A DNA stretch of 64,000 nt. Source: Anaerolinea sp. GTDB taxonomy: Bacteria; Chloroflexota; Limnocylindria; Limnocylindrales; CSP1-4. The first letter of the stretch is position 1; each line of letters starts with the position of its first letter. Below are positions 2,238-62,920 of this stretch, in pieces. The notes beneath the pieces were generated by a model, which was given only the letters and a program-made list of their open reading frames with translations, made no database searches and was not told where the DNA came from. The stretch spans positions 16,852 through 80,851 of the forward strand of contig PNKK01000009.1 of assembly GCA_013822395.1 (NCBI GenBank), written 5' to 3'. The translations under genes and the position numbers were made by a program.

Positions 2238-5180
2238 ATGGGCGTCCGGTTCGAGGCCCCGGCCTGGCTGCTTCTCCTGGTCCCGGCGCTGCTGATCACG
2301 TTCGTGCCACATCTCGCGGCTCGGCGGAGGATCGGGACCGCCCGGCGGCGCGTGGCACTCGCCGTGAGGACGCTCCTCCTCGCGGCGCTCGTCTTCGCGC
2401 TCGCCGGGTTCCAGCTCGTCCTGCCGGTGGACCGCCTCGCGACCGTCTTCGTCGTGGACCTCTCGGATTCCGTCGGCAACGAGGGGCGGGAGACGGCGCT
2501 TGCGTTCCTGCGCGAGAGCCTCGACGCGATGCCGGACGGGGATGCCGCCGGCGTCGTGGCATTCGGCGGGGACGCGCTCGTCGAGCGGCTGCCCGAGGAG
2601 CTCCGCACGATCGATCGGATCCGGTCCACGCCGGTGACCCGCGCGACGGACATCGGGGGCGCGCTCCGGCTCGCCTCCGCGCTCTTCCCGGACGAGATGC
2701 AGAAGCGGATCGTCCTCATCTCGGACGGCAACGACACCACCGGCCGGGGCCAGCAGGAGGCGGCGCTGGCCGCCGCCCGCGGCGTCCAGGTGGAGACCCG
2801 CGCGCTGGGCCTCGACGCGCGCGACGAGGTCCTCGTGGAGCGGCTCCAGACGCCGGCCACGGCCCGGCTCGGCGAGACGATCGAGGCCGTCGCGACGATC
2901 GTGTCGAGTGTCGCCCAGCCAGCCACCGTGCGCCTGTACGCCGACGGCCAGCTGGTCGCGTCCGCGGCCGTCGATCTCGTCGCGGGTTCAAAACAGGTCT
3001 CTTTCGAGGTGGAGAAGCTGGAGGCCGGATTCCACACCTTCCGGGTCGTCGTCGAGGCCGCCCGGGACACGTTCAGCCAGAACAACCGGGCGGACTCGAA
3101 CACGATCGTCAAGGGCGAGCCGCGGATCCTCGTCCTGGCCGGGGACACAAGGGTCGCAGCCGAGCTCGTCTCGGGCCTCGAGATCGAGGGCCAGACGGTG
3201 GACTCGATCGTCCCGGAGGCCCTCCCGACCGACTTCGCCAGCCTCGCGACGTACGACAGCATCGTTGTCGTGGACGTTCCGCGGATCCGCCTGTCGGACC
3301 GGCAGCTCGCTGCGCTCCAGGTCTACGTCCGGGACCTGGGTCGTGGCCTCGTGATGGTCGGCGGCCCGCAGAGCTTCGGCGCCGGCGGTTACACCAAGAC
3401 GCCGATCGAGGAGACCCTGCCGGTGGACATGGGCGTCCGGAACCGGCAGCAGCAGCCGGACGTGGCGCTCGTCGTCGTCATCGACAAGTCCGGCTCCATG
3501 GACGCCTGCCACTGCAATTCGTTCGGCCAGGGCGGCGGCGGAGGCCAGCTCCAGGGCGTCCGGAAGGTCGACATCGGCAAGGAGGCGATCCTTCGCGCCG
3601 CGGCGGGACTGAAGGCGCGCGACGAGCTCGGCGTCGTGGCCTTCGACGAGCAGGCCAGCTGGGTCGTCCGAACGAGACCGCTCGGCGAGATCGACGACCT
3701 CCAGGGCGACATCTCCGGGATCAACCCGAACGGCACCACGAACATCTTCGCCGGCCTCGAGCAGGCGGTCGGATCGCTCGAGGAGGCGACGGCGACGCGG
3801 CGGCACATCATCCTCCTGACCGATGGCTGGTCCAGCTCCGGCCAGTACGACGAGATCCTCGCCCGGATGAAGGCCGCCGGGATCACCCTCTCGACGGTGG
3901 GCGCGGGCGGCGGCGCGAACCCGTTCCTCGAGCAGCTCGCCAATCGGGGCGGCGGCCGTTTCTACCCCGCCGTGAACCCGGCGTCCATCCCGGACATCTT
4001 CCTCAAGGAGACCGAGCAGGTCGCCGGGCAGCAGATCGTGGAGGAGCCCTTCTTCCCGATCCAGACCAGCTCGTCACCGATCCTCCGAGGCCTGGGCGAC
4101 GGCTTCCCACGGCTCCTCGGCTACAACGGCACGACCGCCAAGTCCGCCGCCCAGACGGTCCTCGTGACCGCTCGCGACGACCCGCTCCTCGCGCAATGGC
4201 AGTACGGCCTGGGCCGGAGCGTCGCCTGGACGTCCGACTCGACCGGGCGCTGGGCGAAGAACTGGCTGGGCTGGCAGGGCTTCTCGAGGTTCTTCAGCCA
4301 GCTCGTCGGCTGGACCTTCCCGGGCGAGGAGACCGGCGGCATCGAGGCGACGTTCGAGACGGTGGATGGGCGGACGAGGCTCCGCGTGGAGTCGGTCGAG
4401 TCCGACGGGTCGCCGCGCGACTTCTACACGACCTCGGCGGTCCTGGTGGGACCGGCGCTCGAGCCGGTCGAGGCGGAGCTGGACCAGGTAGCGCCGGGCG
4501 TCTATGAGAAGGACCTCGGCGAGATCGAAACGGGCGCCTACGCGGTCCGGATCACCCAGATCCGGCCTGGGGCGGCAGCGCTGGGCCGGACGGTCGGGCT
4601 GGTGGCGCCGGTCGCGGCCGAGTACCGGCTCCAGGGCGCGAACCGGCCGTTCCTGGCGACGCTGCGGGCGGCCACGGGCGGCCGTGAGATCACCAGCCCG
4701 GAGGAGCCCTGGAGGCACGACCTCACGACGACCTCGTCGTTCACCGAGCTCTGGCCGTGGCTGCTGATCCTCGCGTTGCTGCTGTGGCCGCTGGACGTCG
4801 CCCTCCGACGCGTGTCGATCGGGCGGCGCGAGCTCGCCGACGCGCGGGCGTGGGTGCGCCGGACATGGCGTGGACGGGGGGCGGCGGCTCCGCGCACGGC
4901 TGCGACCACGGGGATGCTGGCAGCGCGGGACCGGGCCGCCGGCGCGGCCGCCAGGGCTGCGATCCTGCGAGACCGCGAGGGCACGAGCGCGACGAGGGAG
5001 CCGCCGGGCACGAGCGCGACGGCGCCGGCTCCGGCGCCCGCTCGGACACCACCAGCGTCGCCCGCGACCCCACCGCTACGACCGGAAGCCCCACCCGAGC
5101 CACCACCGCCGCCGGGCGCCACGGATGCGGACACCCTCGCCCGCCTCCGCGAGGCGAAGCGCCGGGCGCGAGGCGGCTGA
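2238..5180 (+). CDS. Large membrane protein with two VWA domains and a glutamine-amidotransferase-like segment
   Basis: A 980-residue protein starting one base after the preceding stop. Two N-terminal hydrophobic segments are followed by a first VWA-like domain (DLSDS motif near residue 75), a beta-rich middle, a region resembling the class-I-glutamine-amidotransferase-like fold of this family (~290-400), and a second VWA domain with a canonical DKSGS MIDAS motif near residue 415. The second MIDAS is followed by a Cys/His/Gly-rich insertion (DACHCNS then a glycine run). One membrane helix lies near residue 840, then a Pro/Ala-rich cytoplasmic tail. It pairs with the upstream VWA protein. The substrate is unknown; metal-dependent protein binding at the membrane is an inference from the domains. 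Confidence 0.85.
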   Translation: MGVRFEAPAWLLLLVPALLITFVPHLAARRRIGTARRRVALAVRTLLLAALVFALAGFQLVLPVDRLATVFVVDLSDSVGNEGRETALAFLRESLDAMPDGDAAGVVAFGGDALVERLPEELRTIDRIRSTPVTRATDIGGALRLASALFPDEMQKRIVLISDGNDTTGRGQQEAALAAARGVQVETRALGLDARDEVLVERLQTPATARLGETIEAVATIVSSVAQPATVRLYADGQLVASAAVDLVAGSKQVSFEVEKLEAGFHTFRVVVEAARDTFSQNNRADSNTIVKGEPRILVLAGDTRVAAELVSGLEIEGQTVDSIVPEALPTDFASLATYDSIVVVDVPRIRLSDRQLAALQVYVRDLGRGLVMVGGPQSFGAGGYTKTPIEETLPVDMGVRNRQQQPDVALVVVIDKSGSMDACHCNSFGQGGGGGQLQGVRKVDIGKEAILRAAAGLKARDELGVVAFDEQASWVVRTRPLGEIDDLQGDISGINPNGTTNIFAGLEQAVGSLEEATATRRHIILLTDGWSSSGQYDEILARMKAAGITLSTVGAGGGANPFLEQLANRGGGRFYPAVNPASIPDIFLKETEQVAGQQIVEEPFFPIQTSSSPILRGLGDGFPRLLGYNGTTAKSAAQTVLVTARDDPLLAQWQYGLGRSVAWTSDSTGRWAKNWLGWQGFSRFFSQLVGWTFPGEETGGIEATFETVDGRTRLRVESVESDGSPRDFYTTSAVLVGPALEPVEAELDQVAPGVYEKDLGEIETGAYAVRITQIRPGAAALGRTVGLVAPVAAEYRLQGANRPFLATLRAATGGREITSPEEPWRHDLTTTSSFTELWPWLLILALLLWPLDVALRRVSIGRRELADARAWVRRTWRGRGAAAPRTAATTGMLAARDRAAGAAARAAILRDREGTSATREPPGTSATAPAPAPARTPPASPATPPLRPEAPPEPPPPPGATDADTLARLREAKRRARGG

Positions 5181-24898: not shown

Positions 24899-25639
24899 AT
24901 GGACGGTCGAAGGATCGGACGGGTCGTGCGGGTGCTTCGGCACCGGCTTTGTTGGCGCCAGCTCGACTTGGCCGGTCGCGCGGGGCTGAGCCAGTCGCTC
25001 GTCTCGCTGATCGAGCGCGGACACATCGAGGCGGTCGCGGTTGGCAAGCTGGAGGCCGTCCTTCGCGCCCTCGACGCCGATCTCGTCCTGCTGGCCCGAT
25101 GGCGCGGCGGCGACCTCGACCGGCTGCTCGACGAGGCCCATGCCAGACTCGTCGGCGTCGCCGTCGAGCTGCTCACGGCGGCCGGCTGGGCGGTCGAGGT
25201 CGAGGTCACGTACGCGGTTGACTTCGAACAGGGTTCGATCGACATCCTTGCCTGGCACTCCGGCTCCGCTGCGCTGCTGGCAGTCGAAGTGAAGTCCGAG
25301 CTGGTGTCGGTCGAGGAGACGCTGCGTCGGCACGATGCGAAGGCCCGGCTGGCGGCCCGGATCGCCGTTGAGCGGTTCGGCTGGCGGGGGCGGACGGTCG
25401 CCCGGCTGCTCGTCCTGCCGGAGGGCACGACGCCCCGGCGCCGCGTCGCACGCCACGATGCGGTCCTGGCGCGTGCCTATCCGCTCCGATCCATCGATGC
25501 CCGGGCGTGGCTCTCGGCGCCGACGACGGCCCAGGGCAGCCTGGTCTTCCTTCCGTCGCCACCGAGCAACAGGGCTCGTGGTAGGAGCGGCTCCCCCACC
25601 CGGAAGCGCGTCAGGCGGGCGGTGACGCGCTCGATCTGA
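24899..25639 (+). CDS. XRE-type HTH protein with C-terminal PD-(D/E)xK nuclease-like domain
   Basis: A 246-residue protein. Residues 7-66 form a Cro/C1-type helix-turn-helix (QLDLAGRAGLSQSLVSLIERG... LEAVLRALDADLVL). A linker leads to a domain with hydrophobic-Asp (SIDILAW, Asp115) then AVEVKSEL (Glu130, Lys132), the spacing and strand context of PD-(D/E)xK nucleases such as restriction-endonuclease-like or Holliday-junction-resolvase folds. It is the only plus-strand gene within the minus-strand dehydrogenase cluster, divergent from E2. It may be a site-directed nuclease or a regulator with an inactive nuclease fold. The 25569-25584 stretch resembles part of the window's dispersed dyad repeat. 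Confidence 0.7.
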   Translation: MDGRRIGRVVRVLRHRLCWRQLDLAGRAGLSQSLVSLIERGHIEAVAVGKLEAVLRALDADLVLLARWRGGDLDRLLDEAHARLVGVAVELLTAAGWAVEVEVTYAVDFEQGSIDILAWHSGSAALLAVEVKSELVSVEETLRRHDAKARLAARIAVERFGWRGRTVARLLVLPEGTTPRRRVARHDAVLARAYPLRSIDARAWLSAPTTAQGSLVFLPSPPSNRARGRSGSPTRKRVRRAVTRSI

Positions 25640-25720
25640 GCGTGCGCGAGACGCTGATGGTCTCGCCAGTACCCGAGACCCTCGAGATTGGCGCCTGTCC
25701 GCGCCTAGGACGAGCGGCAT

Positions 25721-25793
25721 TCGTACGTGGCGACGGAATCGCCGGCACGGCCGGTTAGCAGCAACCGGATGCGTAGGTGGTAACGGAACGGCC
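25721..25793 (-). repeat. Imperfect repeat at 50-bp spacing over the 3' end of a gene
   Basis: Two ~23-bp related units (25771-25793 and 25721-25743) lie exactly 50 bp apart. On the minus strand the first encodes the end of the gene at 25755, GRSVTTYASGCC-stop; the second, in another frame, reads GDSVATYECRSS-stop. Like the lipA tail, a coding terminus with its stop appears duplicated downstream. Confidence 0.6.
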
Positions 25794-26276
25794 CGCGGAG
25801 ACCGGACAGGCCCGGCGAGGACCGTCAGAGACGGGCCGGCGAGGACCGGATCGCGCGCTGGACATCGCCTTCCGATGTGCCAGCCCGTGTTCCCCGCGCC
25901 GGGCGACCTCCCACGCCGCGTCGCCGGCCGCGCGCTCGTACCCGCGACGGGTCAACTCCGCCAGCTCCGAGAAGAGCGCCTCGTCCACGGACGTGAAGTT
26001 GAAGCACGACTTGCCCTGCATCCGCCGCCGGAGCGCTGGCGACGCGCCCTCGAGGAGCACCGGCTCGACGTAGACCGGCATGAGGTAGTAACTGACGTAG
26101 CGCTTGCCGAGCCGCACGCCACCGAACCAGGTCGTCGGATCGCGCTTGGCCTCGACCGCCATGTCGACGCCGTAGAGCGCCGCGGTGTCGGTGCTCACGT
26201 GCATCCGCCGGCCGTACGGCTCGAGGATGTCGCGGAGCCGCCGGAAGACCGCCCCGAAGTCCTCGCTCGATGCCAT
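25755..26276 (-). CDS. Conserved hypothetical protein
   Basis: A 173-residue protein. The first ~120 residues look like a conserved small alpha/beta family (LRDILEPYGRRMHV, FFGGV-like FGGVRLGKRYVSYYLMPVYV, RMQGKSCFNF) that I have seen only as hypothetical proteins. The remaining ~50 residues are basic, low-complexity and probably a recent extension containing duplicated sequence. It lies 21 bp downstream of E1-beta in the same direction, so probably the last gene of that operon. I assign no function. Confidence 0.7.
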   Translation of the reverse strand: MASSEDFGAVFRRLRDILEPYGRRMHVSTDTAALYGVDMAVEAKRDPTTWFGGVRLGKRYVSYYLMPVYVEPVLLEGASPALRRRMQGKSCFNFTSVDEALFSELAELTRRGYERAAGDAAWEVARRGEHGLAHRKAMSSARSGPRRPVSDGPRRACPVSAGRSVTTYASGCC

Positions 26277-56317: not shown

Positions 56318-56532
56318 CCCCATTTACCACCACGGCTCGTGATATCGCCCTCGGTCGAGGGAATCATCACCATCTACGACCACGGCTCGTGGTAGGTGCA
56401 CGATCTGGCCGCCGCGAGGCGATTGGGTCCGCGTGGGCTGCAGATCCGGAACGTGGCGAGCCCGGTCCATCTTCGGTCTTGATCGACGCGGAGTGGCGGA
56501 GCGCGCCTACCACGAACCTGATTCGTATCTGG
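56318..56532 (+). repeat. Dispersed dyad-repeat element, copy 1
   Basis: An intergenic element between convergent hemY and the aldehyde dehydrogenase. It holds two tandem type-1 units on the minus strand (56318-56344, 56369-56394; exactly 50 bp apart) and, 113 bp further, a type-2 unit on the plus strand (56508-56532). Read in unit orientation all share TACCACGARCC-N4-TCGTA, i.e. ACGA-N7-TCGT dyads. The spacer also aligns with copy 2 (AACGT..CGAGC, GGTAGGTGC, GCGCCTAC), in inverted orientation. No protein is supported. Confidence 0.7.
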
Positions 56533-56658
56533 CGAACGGGTTTCGGCCGCTCACGCCCGAGTCGCTGGCGACCCGCGGCCTGAACGGATCGCGTCGCGGC
56601 CGGCGAACCGCCTCGCGGCTGCCGAGCCGCGCCTGCCTGAGAGAACCCGGGCCCCCGA

Positions 56659-58104
56659 TCAGATCCGGAGCATCACGTGCTTGACGATCGTGTAGTCCTC
56701 GATCGCGTACATCGACTGGTCCTTGCCGTAGCCCGACTCCTTGAAGCCGCCATGCGGCATCTCGGACACGAGCGTGAAGTGGTCGTTGACCCAGACCGTG
56801 CCGAACTGGAGCGCCTTGGCGACGCGCATCGCGCGCCCGATGTCGGCGGTCCAGACCGACGCCGCCAGCCCGAACCGGACGTCGTTGCCCCAGGCGATCG
56901 CCTGGTTCTCGTCCGAGAAGCGCTGGACCGTGACGACCGGCCCGAAGACCTCGTCCTGGATGATCTCGCTGCGCTGGTCCGGCCCGGCGATGACCGTCGG
57001 CTCGTAGTACGCGCCGGGCCGCTTCGGCCGCACCCCGCCGGTGACGATCTCGGCACCCTTCCGGGCGCGGTCGACCATGCCCTCGACCTTGTCTGCCTGC
57101 GCCTTCGCGATGAGTGAGCCCATCTCGATGTCGGCGCCCTCGGCCGGATCGCCCCACCTGATGGTCTTCACCGAGGCGGCGAGGTCGGCCACGAAGTTGT
57201 CGTAGACCTTCGGGCCGGTGATGACCCGGCACGGGGCCGTGCAGTCCTGGCCGGTGTTCCAGTAAGAGAACGTCTTGAGGTTGTCGATGACCGCCTCGAG
57301 GTCGGCGTCGTCGAAGACGACCACGGGCGCCTTGCCGCCGAGCTCGAGGTGGAGGCGCTTGACACGCTCCGCCGCGACCCTGGCGATGTGCTTGCCGGTG
57401 TCGGTGTCCCCCGTCACCGACACCATCCCGATCTTGGGATGGCCAACGAGGTCGTCCCCGATACCAGCGCCGGTGCCCGTGATGACGTTGAGGACGCCCG
57501 GCGGAAGGATGTCCGCCGCGATCTCCGCGAGGAGGATGGCGGTGAGGGGCGTGCGGGCCGAGGGCTTCAGCACGACCGTGTTGCCGGCCATGAGCGCCGG
57601 CCCGATCTTCCAGCCGGCCATCATGATCGGGTAGTTCCACGGCGCGATGGAGGCGACGACGCCCACCGGCTCGCGCCGGATCAGACTGGTGTGGCCGGCC
57701 ATGTACTCGTTGACGGCCTTGCCCTCGAGGACGCGTCCCGCGCCGGCGAAGAAGCGCAGGTTGTCGACGACGACGGGGATCTCGTCGATGGCGACCTGGA
57801 CGGGCTTCCCAGTATTCCGGCTCTCCAGCCGCCCGATCTCGTCCGCGCGCTCCTCGAGCGCATCGGCGAGCTTGAGCATGAGCAGGCTGCGGTCCTGCGG
57901 GGTGGTGTGCTGCCACGCCTCGAAGGCGGTCGCGGCGGCGGCGGCGGCGCGGTCAACGTCCTCCGCCCCGCTCGCCGGGACCTTGGCGATGACCTGCTCG
58001 TTGGCGGGGTTCTCGACGTCGAGGGTCTCGCCGCTCGCGCTGTCGACCCACTGGCCGTTGATGAACTGCTGAAGCGTCTGGACCTTGTCCATGACCTCGG
58101 TCAT
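56659..58104 (-). CDS. Aldehyde dehydrogenase, gamma-aminobutyraldehyde/betaine-aldehyde type
   Basis: A 481-residue NAD-dependent enzyme: APWNYPIMMAGWKIGPAL, Lys180 (VVLKPSARTPL), Glu254 in LELGGKAPVVVF and catalytic Cys288 in NTGQDCTAPCRV. The GQDCTA context and FINGQWVDSASG start resemble PatD-type gamma-aminobutyraldehyde dehydrogenases in putrescine breakdown, though related aldehydes are possible. It stands alone, with a 450-bp repeat-bearing upstream region; the Met at residue 5 is an alternative start. Confidence 0.9.
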   Translation of the reverse strand: MTEVMDKVQTLQQFINGQWVDSASGETLDVENPANEQVIAKVPASGAEDVDRAAAAAATAFEAWQHTTPQDRSLLMLKLADALEERADEIGRLESRNTGKPVQVAIDEIPVVVDNLRFFAGAGRVLEGKAVNEYMAGHTSLIRREPVGVVASIAPWNYPIMMAGWKIGPALMAGNTVVLKPSARTPLTAILLAEIAADILPPGVLNVITGTGAGIGDDLVGHPKIGMVSVTGDTDTGKHIARVAAERVKRLHLELGGKAPVVVFDDADLEAVIDNLKTFSYWNTGQDCTAPCRVITGPKVYDNFVADLAASVKTIRWGDPAEGADIEMGSLIAKAQADKVEGMVDRARKGAEIVTGGVRPKRPGAYYEPTVIAGPDQRSEIIQDEVFGPVVTVQRFSDENQAIAWGNDVRFGLAASVWTADIGRAMRVAKALQFGTVWVNDHFTLVSEMPHGGFKESGYGKDQSMYAIEDYTIVKHVMLRI

Positions 58105-58259
58105 CGGGCGTACCTCCGGAGGCTGGGGCTGCGCCCGCCGGTCGGGCGCGCTCGTCGGTGCGAGGGATGTCCCGCCATTGTGCGCCAGTCACGGACGGAC
58201 GTTAAGCCAATGGACCACCACGGGTGCGCGACGAGCAGCGGAGCACGATTCAGCCCGTG

Positions 58260-58366
58260 GGCCCGCATGCCCGAATCCACCGTCCCTGACAGTTTGCCGG
58301 CGGCCACAACCCCGGCCTTGACACCCGATCGTGGCCCGCATGCCCGAATCCACCGTCCTTGACAGT
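58260..58366 (-). repeat. 34-bp direct repeat upstream of the aldehyde dehydrogenase
   Basis: Two 34-bp copies (58260-58293 and 58333-58366) with one mismatch, 73 bp apart, lie ~155 bp upstream of the aldehyde dehydrogenase start inside a 454-bp gene-free interval (58105-58558). Each contains CCCGCATGCCCGAATCCACC and ends with TGACAGT. They may be tandem operators or a duplicated promoter segment. The rest of the interval also has a CGGGATCCGCG pair (~58487, ~58521) next to the ykoC end. Confidence 0.7.
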
Positions 58367-58558
58367 CTGGGACACACGTTTCCGATGAACGAGCGAGACC
58401 ATCCCCGCGTTCGAGCTGGAATCTGCCTCAGCTGACCCAGGGTCACGCTCATTCATGCGAAACGCGTGTCCTGGACTGAGGCGACCCGGGATCCGCGGCC
58501 CGCGAGCCCTCGACGAGGACGGGATCCGCGACCCGGGAGCCTCAAACCCTCTCGCCCG

Positions 58559-59314
58559 TCAGCGGAAGACGGCGAGCCAGAGCAGGACGAGGCCGCCGAT
58601 CCCCACGGCGAGGTCCGGCCAGCCCCAGCGGATCGGGCGGAACGTGGTGCGCGGCCCCGACCCGAAGGCCCTGGCGTCCATCGCCAGGGCCAACTGATCC
58701 GCGTGACGGATCGCCCGGACCAGGAGACCTACGAGGATGCGCGGGTGCCAGCCACCCCCGAGGCCGCGGATCCGGCGGGCCTGGCGCAGCGTCGCGAGAT
58801 CCTCGCCCAGGCGCGGCAGCGCCTGGTACGCCGCGAGCGCTCCGTACGCGAACCGCCCCGGGAGCCGCGCCTGGAGGACGAGCGAGTCCACGAGCCTCGT
58901 CGGGTCCGTGGTCTGGGCGAAGACCGCCCCGACCGAGATGATCGCGAGCACCCGCGCGCCGAGCGCGGCCGCGACCTCCGCCGCCTCCCGGGTGACCCGG
59001 AGCGGCCCGATGCGGGCGAGCTCTGTGGCCGTGGGATCGGTGTTGGAGGCTGAGAACAGGAAGTTGCTGAGCGCGATCGACGCCGCCGCGGCGACGAGCA
59101 GCGCCAGGCCCCCGGCGAGGCGTGCCCACGGGATCCGGCCGAGGGTCAGCCCGGCGGCGAGCGCGACGGCGGCGAGCAGGAGCGGCGGCCCGGCCTCGAC
59201 GGTAAGCACCAGCCCAATCAGCCAGGCCACCGCCAGCGCGAGCTTCACGAGCGGGCTCGTCCGGCCGAGGAGGCTCCGCTCCTGCGCGCCGGAGAGGTCG
59301 ATGGGTGTCAGCAT
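58559..59314 (-). CDS. ykoC: ECF transporter T component, YkoC-like
   Basis: A 251-residue membrane protein with about five helices and the EcfT cytoplasmic motifs: two Ala-Arg-Gly-type helices are represented by ATLRQARRIRGLGGG and LAMDARAFGSG. It transmits ATP hydrolysis from the ATPase to the substrate component. Its ATG overlaps the ATPase stop by one base. It completes a YkoE-YkoD-YkoC set under a thiamine-pyrophosphate riboswitch. Confidence 0.88.
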   Translation of the reverse strand: MLTPIDLSGAQERSLLGRTSPLVKLALAVAWLIGLVLTVEAGPPLLLAAVALAAGLTLGRIPWARLAGGLALLVAAAASIALSNFLFSASNTDPTATELARIGPLRVTREAAEVAAALGARVLAIISVGAVFAQTTDPTRLVDSLVLQARLPGRFAYGALAAYQALPRLGEDLATLRQARRIRGLGGGWHPRILVGLLVRAIRHADQLALAMDARAFGSGPRTTFRPIRWGWPDLAVGIGGLVLLWLAVFR

Positions 59315-60861
59315 CAGGCGCCTGCCGCGGCTTCCGGCTCGCCGGCACCCCGGCCCGGGCCAGCCCCACGGCCCCGGCCCGGGCCGTCATCCGCGACGAT
59401 CCAGCCGCCCGCCATCTCGACCCGGCGGTGGGCGACCTGGGTCGCAAAACGCTCGTCGTGGGTCGCGGCGAGGACGGCGATCCCCTCCTCCACCAGCTCG
59501 CCGACGATCGCGGCCATCGCCTCCCAACCGCGCCGATCCTGCCCGAAGGTCGGCTCGTCCAAGAGGAGGAGACGCGGGCGGTGGGCGAGGGCGACGGCGA
59601 CCGACAACCGGCGCTGCTCGCCGCCGGACAGCCGGTACGGGCTCCGCGCTCCGAACCACCCAACGGGCAGGCCGAGGCGCTCGAGGAGCTCGGCGGCCGC
59701 CGCCGCACTCGACCGGTTCAGACCAAGGCCGATCTCCTGGGCCACAGTGTCGGCGAGGAATCCGAGCTCCGGATCCTGGAAGACGAACCCGGCCAACCGC
59801 GCGAGGCGAGCTGGTGGGAGGCGCGCGGGATCGAGGCCATCGAGGGCGATTGACCCCGCCGAGGGCCGTACCAGCCCCGCGATCAGCCGAAGGAGCGTCG
59901 ACTTCCCGCTCCCGTTCGGACCCACGAGCGCGACCCGCTCCCCGGCGGCGATCCCGATATCGAGGTCGCGGACGGCCGGCTCGCCCCGGACGTACTCGAA
60001 CCGCGCGTCGTGAACCTCGACGAGATCCGTGCCCCGCGACGCCTCGCTGCCGGCGACGGGCGCGCTGGCGCCGAGCCCGGCCAGGTCGTCCGGCAGCCAG
60101 ATGCCCTCGCGGGCGAGGCGGGTGCCGGATCGGGCGAGGACGGCCACCGGCGGTCCGAGATCGATGGGGGCCCCGGTCGCGTCGAGGGCCAGGACGAGGT
60201 CCGCGAGCGGCCAGGCGAGATCGGCCCGGTGCTCCACGAGGACGATCGTCGATCGTCGGTGGGCCCGGAGCGCCGTCAGGCGGGCGAAGAGAGCCATCGC
60301 GCCCGCCGGGTCCAGGTTCGCCGTGGGTTCGTCCAGGACCAGGACGGCCGGCCACGGCGCCTCCACGCCGGCCAGGGCGAGACGCTGCTGCTCCCCGCCG
60401 GAGAGCCGGGTCCCGCGGCGCTGCTCGGAGCCACCGAGCCCCACCGCGCCGAGCGCCTCTGGCACGCGCGCCCGCATCGCCGCGAGCGGCCAGGCCCGGT
60501 TCTCCAGCCCGAACGCGACATCGTCCGCGGCCCGGTCCATCACGAGCTGGCTGGCGGGGTCCTGGAAGAGGATCCCGACCCTGGCCGCGACCTCGGCCGG
60601 CGTGGCGGCCGCCACCTCGAGCTCCCCGACGCGAAGCGAGCCGTGCCACTCCCCGGGGACGTCCCGCGGGACGAGGCCGGCGACGGCACGGGCGAGCGTG
60701 CTCTTGCCGGACCCCGACGGACCCACCACCAGGAGGACACCACCGGCATCGAGCCTGAGGTCGATCCCGGCGAGCGCCGGCCGGTCCGTCCCCACGTACC
60801 GGAACGTGACGCCGTCGGCGGCGAGCGGCAGCGGGCCTCCCGGCCCGCCGAACGGGATCAG
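59314..60861 (-). CDS. ykoD: ECF transporter double ATPase, YkoD-like
   Basis: A 515-residue protein with two ABC ATPase domains: Walker A GPSGSGKST and GPNGSGKST, signatures LSGGEQQR and LSGGEQRR, Walker B VLVLDEPTANLD and LLLLDEPTFGQD. Two fused domains are usual for YkoD. No ATG, GTG or TTG precedes the first beta-strand in frame; a CTG at 60859-60861 overlaps the ykoE TGA (CTGA) with GGAAGGG 8 nt upstream, so I take CTG as the probable start. It energises uptake of a thiamine precursor. Confidence 0.9.
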   Translation of the reverse strand: MIPFGGPGGPLPLAADGVTFRYVGTDRPALAGIDLRLDAGGVLLVVGPSGSGKSTLARAVAGLVPRDVPGEWHGSLRVGELEVAAATPAEVAARVGILFQDPASQLVMDRAADDVAFGLENRAWPLAAMRARVPEALGAVGLGGSEQRRGTRLSGGEQQRLALAGVEAPWPAVLVLDEPTANLDPAGAMALFARLTALRAHRRSTIVLVEHRADLAWPLADLVLALDATGAPIDLGPPVAVLARSGTRLAREGIWLPDDLAGLGASAPVAGSEASRGTDLVEVHDARFEYVRGEPAVRDLDIGIAAGERVALVGPNGSGKSTLLRLIAGLVRPSAGSIALDGLDPARLPPARLARLAGFVFQDPELGFLADTVAQEIGLGLNRSSAAAAAELLERLGLPVGWFGARSPYRLSGGEQRRLSVAVALAHRPRLLLLDEPTFGQDRRGWEAMAAIVGELVEEGIAVLAATHDERFATQVAHRRVEMAGGWIVADDGPGRGRGAGPGRGAGEPEAAAGA

Positions 60862-61451
60862 CCGGGAAACCCTTCCAGGACGCCGGCGCGCCGCAGCGAA
60901 CGGGCGAGTGCAACCGACCCGAACCCGGCGATGACCACCGCGGAGATTGCCATGGCGATGCCGCGGGCGACCTGGACGTCGACGGCGTAATCGGGATACC
61001 AGACGGCCCAGTCGTGGATCCAGGCGGCGGCCGCGGACGCCACCGCCGCGATCGCGATCACCGGGAGCGACCACGCGCGGTAGAGCGTGAACGCGAAGAC
61101 GAGCTCGGCCGCCGCACCCTGGACGAAGCCGGAGAGCAGCACGTCCGGGCCCCACGGGCTGCCGAGGAGCGTGGAGACGCCGGCGGCGACCAGCTCGGCG
61201 TAGAGGGCCGCGCCCGGCTTCCGGACGATGATCGGCGCGAGGACGGCGGGCACGAGCCACCCGCCGTAGATCAGGAAGACGCCCAGCGGTGCCGCGCCGC
61301 TCAGGATGCTCCACGCGGCATTGAGCGCCACGAACGCGACCCCGAAGGCGACCCCGATGATCGCGGTGACGATGATGTCGCGGGTCCGCCAGCGCGTATC
61401 CGCAGCGAACCCGCGTGCGGCGCCGGCCGAGCCGGCTGTCGTCGTGGTCAT
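60858..61451 (-). CDS. ykoE: ECF transporter substrate component, YkoE family
   Basis: A 197-residue protein with about six helices (DIIVTAIIGVAFGVAFVALNA, GVFLIYGGWLVPAVLAPII, LVAAGVSTLLGSPWG, GFVQGAAAELVFAFTLYR). This is the YkoE pattern, and YkoEDC systems are known to bring in thiamine or its hydroxymethylpyrimidine moiety. The ATG is preceded by GGAGG at ~9 nt. It is the first gene after the TPP riboswitch, which fixes the substrate class. Confidence 0.92.
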   Translation of the reverse strand: MTTTTAGSAGAARGFAADTRWRTRDIIVTAIIGVAFGVAFVALNAAWSILSGAAPLGVFLIYGGWLVPAVLAPIIVRKPGAALYAELVAAGVSTLLGSPWGPDVLLSGFVQGAAAELVFAFTLYRAWSLPVIAIAAVASAAAAWIHDWAVWYPDYAVDVQVARGIAMAISAVVIAGFGSVALARSLRRAGVLEGFPG

Positions 61452-61473
61452 GTTCCAGGTCCTCCGAAACTCG

Positions 61474-61498
61474 AAACGCCGCCCCCGTGAGGACGGCG
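61474..61498 (-). terminator. Attenuator hairpin of the TPP riboswitch
   Basis: On the minus strand CGCCGTCC and GGGCGGCG (61491-61498, 61477-61484) pair into an 8-bp stem with one G-T wobble and a 6-nt loop, followed by a broken U-tract (TTTCGAGTTT). It lies between the aptamer and ykoE and fits a ligand-induced terminator; masking of the ribosome site is an alternative. Confidence 0.62.
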
Positions 61499-61511
61499 TC
61501 AGAGCTTGGAA

Positions 61512-61602
61512 CGGCCTGCTTCCTTCGCCGGTACGAGCCGGATCAGGTTCGGCGGGTCTGTGGCTGGGCCACACTCTCAGCGCTCGTGCGCTCCCCGGAG
61601 GC
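61512..61602 (-). ncRNA. Thiamine pyrophosphate (THI-box) riboswitch
   Basis: On the minus strand the conserved THI elements appear in order: GGGGAGC, GCTGAGAGT (pyrimidine-sensing loop), GACCCG, then GAACCTGATCCGG and TACCGGCGAAGGAAGC (pyrophosphate-sensing arm), closing a P1 stem with the first element. It lies ~60 nt upstream of ykoE. When TPP binds, the downstream hairpin should stop transcription of the transporter operon. Confidence 0.95.
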
Positions 61603-61625
61603 GATCTTAAGTTGTGGGCGCGATT

Positions 61626-62522
61626 CTACACCGTGGCTGCGGCGGACCCCGCGGCCGCGGCGGACCCCGCGGACCCCATGGCCGCCGACGGCGATGTCGA
61701 CGCAGCCGCGAGCTGCTCGTCGATCCAGTCGATGACCTCGGCGAGGATCTCCGGTCCCTCCGGCTCGTTGTGAAGCTCGTGCCGGATCCCCGGGTAGGTA
61801 CGTCGGGTCACGCACGGGAGGGCGCCGAGCGACTCGGAGACCCGGGCCGGCACGAGCGGGTCGTCCAGGCCGTGGATCACCAGCACCGGTATCGACAGCT
61901 TCGACGCCTCGGCCCGCACGCGGGCCTGCTCCTCGAAGAACCGCGCGCCGAACCCGGTCGTGGAGCCGGTGACCATCAGCGGGTCGGTCCGGACCGCCTC
62001 CTGGCGGGCCGGGTCTCGCGACAACGCGGACGGGTCGATCCCGTTGGGGATCCGGAGGTGCGGCAGGACCCGAGCCGCGACCGGGGCGATCGCCCGCTTC
62101 CAGGCCGGAACGTCCGCATCGATGCCCGGCGCGGACAGAACCAGGAGGTCCGGCGGCGGCCGGTCGGAGACGGCATACCCGAGCACAATGAGCCCACCCA
62201 TCGAGTGGCCGTAGAGGATCACCGGCTTGCCCGGGAGGGCCGCCCGGACCGCAGCGAGACGATCCTCGACGTCGTCGTGGAAGCGCGACCAGCGGTCCAC
62301 CCAGGCGCGCTCACCGCCGGACGCCCCGAACCCGCGATGGTCCCAGCCAAAGGTCTCGAGGCCGGCCGCGGCAAGCTGGTCGCCGACGTGCTCGTAGCGG
62401 GCGCAGTGCTCGCCGAGACCGTGGACCAGGAGGACCGCGGCCCTCGGCGTGCCCGCCGGCCAGTGGCGGGCGAGGAGCCTGATCCCGTCGCGGGTGATCG
62501 CGCTGTCGGTCATCGATGGCAT
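61626..62522 (-). CDS. Alpha/beta hydrolase, monoacylglycerol lipase/lysophospholipase type
   Basis: A 298-residue hydrolase from MPSMTDSAITRDG. It has the VLLVHGLGEHCARYEHV oxyanion region, the nucleophile elbow YGHSMGGLIVLGYA (Ser), Asp in VIHGLDDPLVPA and His in GIRHELHNEP. This is the Hydrolase_4 pattern of monoacylglycerol lipases and lysophospholipases. The last ~25 residues are an Ala/Ser/Gly repeat (GSAGSAAAAGSAAA). It lies just upstream of the riboswitch; an in-frame extension upstream runs through the dyad-repeat element and is not credible. Confidence 0.9.
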   Translation of the reverse strand: MPSMTDSAITRDGIRLLARHWPAGTPRAAVLLVHGLGEHCARYEHVGDQLAAAGLETFGWDHRGFGASGGERAWVDRWSRFHDDVEDRLAAVRAALPGKPVILYGHSMGGLIVLGYAVSDRPPPDLLVLSAPGIDADVPAWKRAIAPVAARVLPHLRIPNGIDPSALSRDPARQEAVRTDPLMVTGSTTGFGARFFEEQARVRAEASKLSIPVLVIHGLDDPLVPARVSESLGALPCVTRRTYPGIRHELHNEPEGPEILAEVIDWIDEQLAAASTSPSAAMGSAGSAAAAGSAAATV

Positions 62523-62653
62523 GGCGTGAGGGTACTCCGGGGGGATCGGCGCGGCGCCAGCGATTCGGCGGCGGGTGTCGAGTGCCCGGGCCCCCGGCGG
62601 CCGACCGCGACGCGGCCCCGAGACCGCGACGCGCCCCGAGACCGCGCCTGTTG

Positions 62654-62920
62654 CCAGATACGAATCAGGCTCGTTGTAGGCGCGACGCCTCCACCCGGGA
62701 ACGGGGTGACGGGGGTGCCGACCCCGCTCGTAACGTTCGAGATGTCCGGTCGGAGGGTCGTCCGCGACCACCCGCGGTCGAATCCCGCACCTACCACGAG
62801 CCATGTTCGTAAACGGGGACCCTCTCACCGGTCGGGCGCGATAGCACGAGCCCTGTTCGTAGACGGGGCCGATGTTGTCGGTCCGATCCGATACCACGAG
62901 CCGCAGTCGTAAATGGGGAC
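62654..62920 (+). repeat. Dispersed dyad-repeat element, copy 2
   Basis: In the ~490-bp gene-free interval between the divergent hydrolase and the metallo-hydrolase. One type-2 unit on the minus strand (62654-62678) is followed, 113 bp on, by three type-1 units on the plus strand starting at 62792, 62842 and 62892, so tandem at exactly 50 bp. Unit form: TA(C/G)CACGAGCC-N4-TCGTARAYGGGG. The same spacing and motif order, inverted, occur at 56318-56532. The last unit ends ~95 bp before the metallo-hydrolase GTG, so promoter binding sites are one possibility. Confidence 0.75.

Follow-up and report, generated by a model that had tools for sequence, protein, structure and literature searches.

A phased dyad element dispersed in Chloroflexota genomes is probably the DNA site of a helix-turn-helix protein with a predicted PD-(D/E)XK nuclease domain

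Results

The DNA analysed here, a stretch of 64,000 nucleotides from Anaerolinea sp. (Chloroflexota; contig PNKK01000009.1, positions 16,852 to 80,851) that is referred to as the window, carries three copies of an element built from 15-bp dyads. One of them, termed the home element, overlaps the 3' end of a gene (24899..25639, + strand) for a protein with a helix-turn-helix (HTH) domain (residues 1-66) and a PD-(D/E)XK fold (residues about 80-222), which is the likely reader of the dyads. An initial annotation of the window had described seven units of the two other copies but not the HTH-nuclease gene. When its pattern TACCACGARCC-N4-TCGTA was searched with up to three mismatches, 10 matches were found in the window versus 0.51 expected, a number reached in none of 100 shuffles, and the seven units, with 0-2 mismatches each, are among these ten. 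The tandem spacing of 50 bp (two and three copies), the single unit in opposite orientation beyond a gap of 113 bp and the mutual inversion of the two copies had all been read correctly. The tail RAYGGGG follows four of the five tandem units, but the unit at 56376-56390 reads GATGGTG. The unit at 25569 that had been taken for a partial one forms the left dyad of the third element (25565-25774), which has three dyads, the last one degenerate.

Dyads were located with a 35-column matrix made from the tandem units, and the tandem dyads of copies 1 and 2 were detected by pattern and matrix scan alike. In copy 1, which lies in a convergent gap adjoining an aldehyde dehydrogenase gene, the tandem dyads are at 56376..56390 and, one 50-bp step further, at 56326..56340 (both - strand), and the inverted dyad, 136 bp from the first of these, is at 56512..56526 (+). 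A degenerate core sequence GGAACGTGG with two mismatches is found between them at 56448..56456 (+; offsets 55/57, picked, like the other per-element core offsets, within tolerance). Copy 2 consists of an inverted dyad at 62660..62674 (-; pattern match and 30.0 bits in the matrix scan) and, 136 bp from it, tandem dyads at 62796..62810, 62846..62860 and 62896..62910 (all +) in steps of 50 bp. In the case of the home element, the left dyad (25565..25579, -) is a weak unit of 13.5 bits inside the 3' end of the HTH-nuclease open reading frame (ORF), followed by a core TGAGCGTGC with one mismatch (25637..25645, +; offsets 57/64), a tandem dyad of 28.3 bits at 25710..25724 (+), which is 145 bp from the left dyad, and, 50 bp on, the degenerate dyad at 25760..25774 (+). 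A lone window unit at 60241 (19.3 bits), a chance cluster in locus L036 (33 bp) and locus L011, with one scoring unit, were dropped.

In 61 related genomes (G numbers), two occurrences of ACGA-N7-TCGT were searched at distances of 35-65 bp. Exact pairs were obtained from six genomes of the genus including that of the window, and 37 of these 39 pairs are 50 bp apart and two are 49 bp apart, whereas the reversed pattern gave no pair in the same search. A seventh genome (G029), left out of these counts, has three pairs that are 58-61 bp apart. One inverted unit was present at every matrix-scanned locus holding an exact pair. The layout is one inverted 15-bp dyad, a spacer and then two to three direct dyads at 50-bp steps. 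In a set of 47 elements, comprising those of the window and element stretches taken from related genomes, the distance from the inverted to the first tandem dyad takes values of 114-116, 125-126, 135-137, 145-147, 154 and 157-158 bp, and in 45 of the 47 it deviates by at most 1.5 bp from a multiple of 10.5 bp (35% by chance; R 0.918). At homologous genes the distances mostly differ by about whole helical turns, with 115 and 125 bp at one gene, 125, 135 and 136 bp beside the aldehyde dehydrogenase gene and 135, 136, 137 and 146 bp in home elements, apart from exceptions of 145 and 154 bp.

The spacer contains a 9-bp core, [TC]GAGC(AC/GT/AT)G[GA], in either direction. Exact matches number 35 in the 47 spacers versus 0.76 in shuffled spacers, and 33 of the 35 occupy a ladder position with respect to the dyads on both sides (4.7% expected); this ladder test is the unbiased count of core phasing. 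Some letters are retained on either side of the dyad, TA..C in front of it and A..TG behind it, and the GTAG of the GTAG/CGTC tag of repetitive extragenic palindromic (REP) sequences is not fixed. The helical ladder suggests that the DNA between the sites may be looped.

A model of the unit, with 150 candidates scored per genome, gave 12 to 37 matches in each of G000 (the genome of the window), G001, G005, G007, G010 and G013. The other 31 genomes searched gave none or one or two weak matches, and those in G009, G014, G017, G020 and G037, among them loci L134 (G009) and L135 (G014), were not counted. Further copies with locked spacing exist in the genome of the window and in five other members of the genus. 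A scan of 84,980 species for the oriented tandem pair returned 31 stretches, 29 of them in Chloroflexota records; the remaining two (L141 and L143) contain no unit by the matrix and were treated as chance matches. Viral contigs gave no match. This wide scan reached four more genomes with 3, 12, 14 and 45 ACGA pairs, and six of their loci are arranged differently, with about four dyads spaced by 40-52 bp and a further dyad 104-125 bp beyond them.

Across species, elements adjoin homologous genes: atpA/atpG in four, the home gene in six and the aldehyde dehydrogenase gene in five. The initial annotation had pointed out that copies 1 and 2 bracket the aldehyde dehydrogenase and YkoEDC genes, and this looks incidental, because both copies belong to a set scattered over the genome, and in four other species counterparts of the dehydrogenase-side copy adjoin a homologous gene. 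In G013 (L058:356-4501, +) and G007 (L032) an element was seen inside the ORF call of a gene that is DnaE-like by eye, and it may be translated through. Contig ends lie within about 1.6 kb of an element on G005:C4, G007:C49, G013:C12/C27/C42/C56 and G010:C10/C181, as if the assembly broke at the repeats.

The HTH domain matches HTH_31 with 28.7 bits, above the cut-off of 27, which places it among XRE (Cro/CI) HTH domains, and fold matching brings it close to the antitoxins HipB and HigA. For the C-terminal domain, fold matching indicates a nuclease of the PD-(D/E)XK superfamily, close to several defence nucleases and to XisH chains (PDB 2okf, 2inb), and the predicted catalytic D and E-x-K residues (D115, E130, K132) are invariant in 64 aligned sequences. 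No match to Pfam XisH was found for the C-terminal domain and four homologs. Where database names are given among 120 listed of 811 homologs, they are mostly those of XRE-type regulators. Cleavage at the core might be envisaged from the fold and the invariant residues of this predicted nuclease domain.

The protein family was found in 35 of the 61 related genomes, many of which have no ACGA elements, and co-occurrence of the gene with ACGA elements was therefore rejected as a marker. The link between gene and element becomes visible only when other dyad letters are allowed: relatives of the gene have similar downstream layouts with ACGCAC, ACCGCC, ACCAC, GTTC and more. Over 72 gene loci, palindromicity has one peak, +9 nt past the codon that aligns with F217, where its mean is 2.99 of 5, with 2.47 at the next offset and a mean of 1.48 over all offsets (standard deviation of the offset means, 0.23). 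A layout score exceeded the maximum of 852 shuffles at 11 of 71 gene loci, four of them with letters other than ACGA. Eighteen of 19 core matches after the F217-aligned codon lie 50-100 bp from it. At L115, about 200-420 bp past the end of the gene homology and beside dyads, there is a 20-bp tandem array of ~11 copies containing the core motif CGAGCGTGG.

For covariation tests, the left dyad was chosen among four offsets by palindromicity and not by its letters, and 12 of the 72 loci, those whose palindromes were weaker, were excluded. In the 60 loci retained, the protein residue and dyad base with the highest mutual information among 1512 pairs were residue 32 and base 1 (z 12.1); third came residue 34 paired with base 4 (z 7.4). 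The second rank, M1 with base 7 (z 8.5), is a probable artefact, produced by occasional differences in start codon, and the z values of 4.9-6.5 for residues 139, 174 and 221 show how much can result from shared descent alone. Half-sites have A in 57 of 66 cases when residue 32 is Q and G in 24 of 36 cases when it is R, an association reached in 0 of 20,000 permutations, or in 1 of 20,000 when 32 representatives under 50% identity were used. In the offset control of the residue 32 test, six wrong offsets returned values of -7 to -12 versus 75.

The letters found at a gene were then used as predictions for its own genome. With those of the G023 gene, 13 ACGC pairs were detected in G023, all at 50 bp, one at the gene and 12 away from it; elsewhere, G025 has two at 50 bp and G005, G007 and G016 have none at this distance, with no pair at all in G007 and G016. 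Among 12 loci in G023, nine have an opposite dyad 156-158 bp away and three have no clear one, and five contain an exact core between two dyads, 65-68 bp from each. The letters of the G015 gene gave 39 ACCGC pairs in G015, including six at the gene, versus none in five other genomes. Most steps in G015 measure 40 or 62-63 bp; five exact cores lie between dyads in four of 12 loci, with offsets of 13-15 and 24-25. Because the letters of the site covary with the recognition helix and gene-less copies share the letters of the site at the gene, the repeat is likely a DNA site of the HTH-nuclease protein. The protein-site pairing is well supported and the HTH-nuclease likely binds the dyads. The cooperative protein binding considered in the initial annotation gains support from the spacer ladder and from this covariation, but the 50-bp period, which had been its basis, is not evidence for it because 50 bp is not a whole number of turns.

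Signs of possible mobility were seen in gaps between conserved genes and in copies within genomes. The atpA-atpG gap measures 309-370 bp with an element in four species versus 12 bp in G008, and the sequence GATGGC from the start of atpG is retained on the left side, the only hint of a target duplication. In G013, the gene-less (orphan) locus L053 and the home element L050 align at 82% identity along 252 bp, a stretch that takes in a little of the end of the gene; another two orphans of this genome, L056 and L057, are 87.5% identical over 320 bp. At L275 (G025), dyads occur at 2246-2311 and 3443-3582, on both sides of the HTH-nuclease gene, and this locus is perhaps a two-ended form. A protein search for gene remnants beside orphans gave nothing convincing, with one weak match on the wrong strand. 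The pdh gap of G003 has no recognisable element, and that of G008 contains an element with other letters and no gene. This latter locus (L209) has AGTC..GACT dyads and a core, and its 50-bp pair is the only such pair found in G008; matches to AGTC letters at 36 bp in G001 and G013 (two) were taken as chance.

Two neighbouring features were also recorded. A small protein without Pfam match is encoded at 25755-26276 (-), between a pdhB-like gene and the home element, and has relatives in the same position at other loci. The only Rfam match above gathering score in the window is a thiamine pyrophosphate (TPP) riboswitch at 61502-61607 (-), upstream of the YkoEDC genes, in keeping with the role of these genes in thiamine-related uptake.

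Discussion

We consider it probable that the element is the DNA site of the HTH protein with a predicted PD-(D/E)XK nuclease domain, and propose that it takes part in looping and nuclease-driven copying. Protein dimers would sit on the dyads, each a constant step from the next (50 bp within this genus, 40 bp in G015), and the stretch that runs from the inverted dyad past the core to the first tandem dyad would be looped; such looping would account for distances that change mostly by whole helical turns. More speculatively, the nuclease domain might act at the 9-bp core, and breakage of the core followed by repair might copy the element to new places and hold existing copies in register. The gene with its 3' site would represent the autonomous form and gene-less copies the non-autonomous forms. 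No description of this element or protein was found in the literature searched.

Several observations weigh against this proposal. No flanking target duplication above the shuffle maximum and no clean termini were detected in 38 elements, and the window contains no matching second end 5' of the HTH-nuclease gene. The spacer of copy 2 has no recognisable core, and that of copy 1 only the degenerate one. At 60 of the 71 gene loci the layout score stays within the shuffle maximum, and many loci show nothing clear; at five of the 11 high-scoring loci (L097, L102, L105, L115, L137) the score comes from the tandem pair and the left dyad does not match. An exact core within 170 bp of the F217-aligned codon was found at only 17 of 71 loci, compared with 9.8% of control stretches. 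Home elements account for both departures from the ladder (145 bp in G000, 154 bp in G001). One stray ACGC pair each occurs in G005 (49 bp) and G025 (60 bp), and the letters of the G021 gene detected only its own home pair in G021 and no dispersed set, a failure in one of the three letter predictions. Finally, copies at the atp locus appear to be kept under selection, because in four species the dyad arms remain 98% identical while the spacer interior has drifted to 43%, and host function explains this conservation as well as copying does.

This last point leads to the most serious rival, in which the elements are host regulatory or chromosome-architecture sites: the HTH protein would bind without cutting, bend or bridge DNA or tune operons, and host use would keep the copies. 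The conservation of dyads and core at an orthologous place with a far-diverged spacer, and elements that adjoin homologous genes in up to six species, are in its favour. However, the flanking genes that were identified have no obvious common function, the catalytic residues are invariant, and no recognisable element exists at the pdh locus of G003 and none at the atp locus of G008. In addition, few copies can be promoter sites, as 27 of the 31 orphans that have a gene no more than 700 bp away on either side are found in convergent or co-directional gaps and four, including copy 2, in divergent ones (in the window, 6 of 22 gaps are divergent as background). Copying is compatible with the orphans and the insertion, and host function fits the orthologous conservation about as well; overall, we regard host-serving sites as the less likely explanation.

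The closeness of the nuclease fold to several defence nucleases and of the HTH to HipB/HigA antitoxins might also point to self-destruction or defence, with the nuclease cutting the host chromosome at dispersed cores under stress or phage attack. PADLOC gave only two weak matches, an HTH model and HORMA (E 0.035), and no defence nuclease, in an analysis that did not look for island context, and such a role seems improbable.

The initial annotation had also considered a structured RNA or an element resembling REPs or bacterial interspersed mosaic elements (BIMEs). The units are palindromic, intergenic and often downstream of genes, a location also described for REPs (PMC3733652), and of 15 positions tested, two in the flanks have a weak excess of pairs (p 0.012 and 0.020). 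However, base 5 of 15, which together with its partner is the most variable, does not covary with it (35 pairs versus 31.7 in shuffles), the spacing tracks the turn of double-stranded DNA, no Rfam match was found at the elements, and RAYT (Y1_Tnp) matches number zero in the window's own genome, which is 70% complete. A hairpin or RNA origin is accordingly very improbable, and the dyad system is likely a protein-site pair. Local duplication debris, suggested by two window copies only 6 kb apart, is refuted by copies with locked geometry in six members of the genus and in other Chloroflexota metagenome-assembled genomes.

Returning to the proposed nuclease-driven copying, several known systems can be compared. 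Miniature inverted-repeat transposable elements (MITEs) can be paired with an autonomous transposon, and gene-less copies, insertion polymorphism and within-genome copies of the present element are MITE-like; unlike a MITE system, the gene has no second terminal repeat in the window, target duplications are not clear, and geometry is conserved between species. Lambdoid and HipB-type repressors use multi-site operators, and the present protein resembles them in its XRE fold and dyad operators but differs by the nuclease-fold domain, the core site, the dispersed stations and the site at the 3' end of its gene. In the 434 repressor a glutamine of the recognition helix reads A, and Q32 seems to read A here too. 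The matched chains of XisH, an fdxN element excision controlling factor, consist of the nuclease-fold domain alone, without an HTH. REPtrons, in which REP palindromes are associated with a RAYT tyrosine transposase, are similar (PMC3733652) in that the repeat decorates a gene dedicated to it, copies lacking the gene are dispersed and have the letters of the site at the gene, and these letters differ between species. They differ in their protein, a tyrosine HUH transposase instead of an HTH with PD-(D/E)XK domain, and in their single hairpins, as opposed to double-stranded dyads arranged in a phased multi-site station with a core (PMC3733652). With moderate confidence, the nuclease-driven, REPtron-like interpretation is favoured.

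A broader picture, which we put forward tentatively, is a genome-wide network of looped cleavage stations, in which an HTH-nuclease with its target in the 3' end of its own gene would copy and maintain about 5 to 15 gene-less stations per genome, all switching letters together with the recognition helix, without RAYT or a known transposase. As the target can be read from sequence, the specificity of many members of the family becomes readable at once, and the family would offer a natural series of helix-to-base codes for the XRE fold. A protein that has a nuclease fold and does not belong to the RAYT class would be tied to repeats scattered between genes, and it becomes testable whether repeats of this kind have a selfish, regulatory or structural nature. 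If it is true that the nuclease acts at the core, the protein would represent a novel type of enzyme that is site-specific and depends on loop formation.

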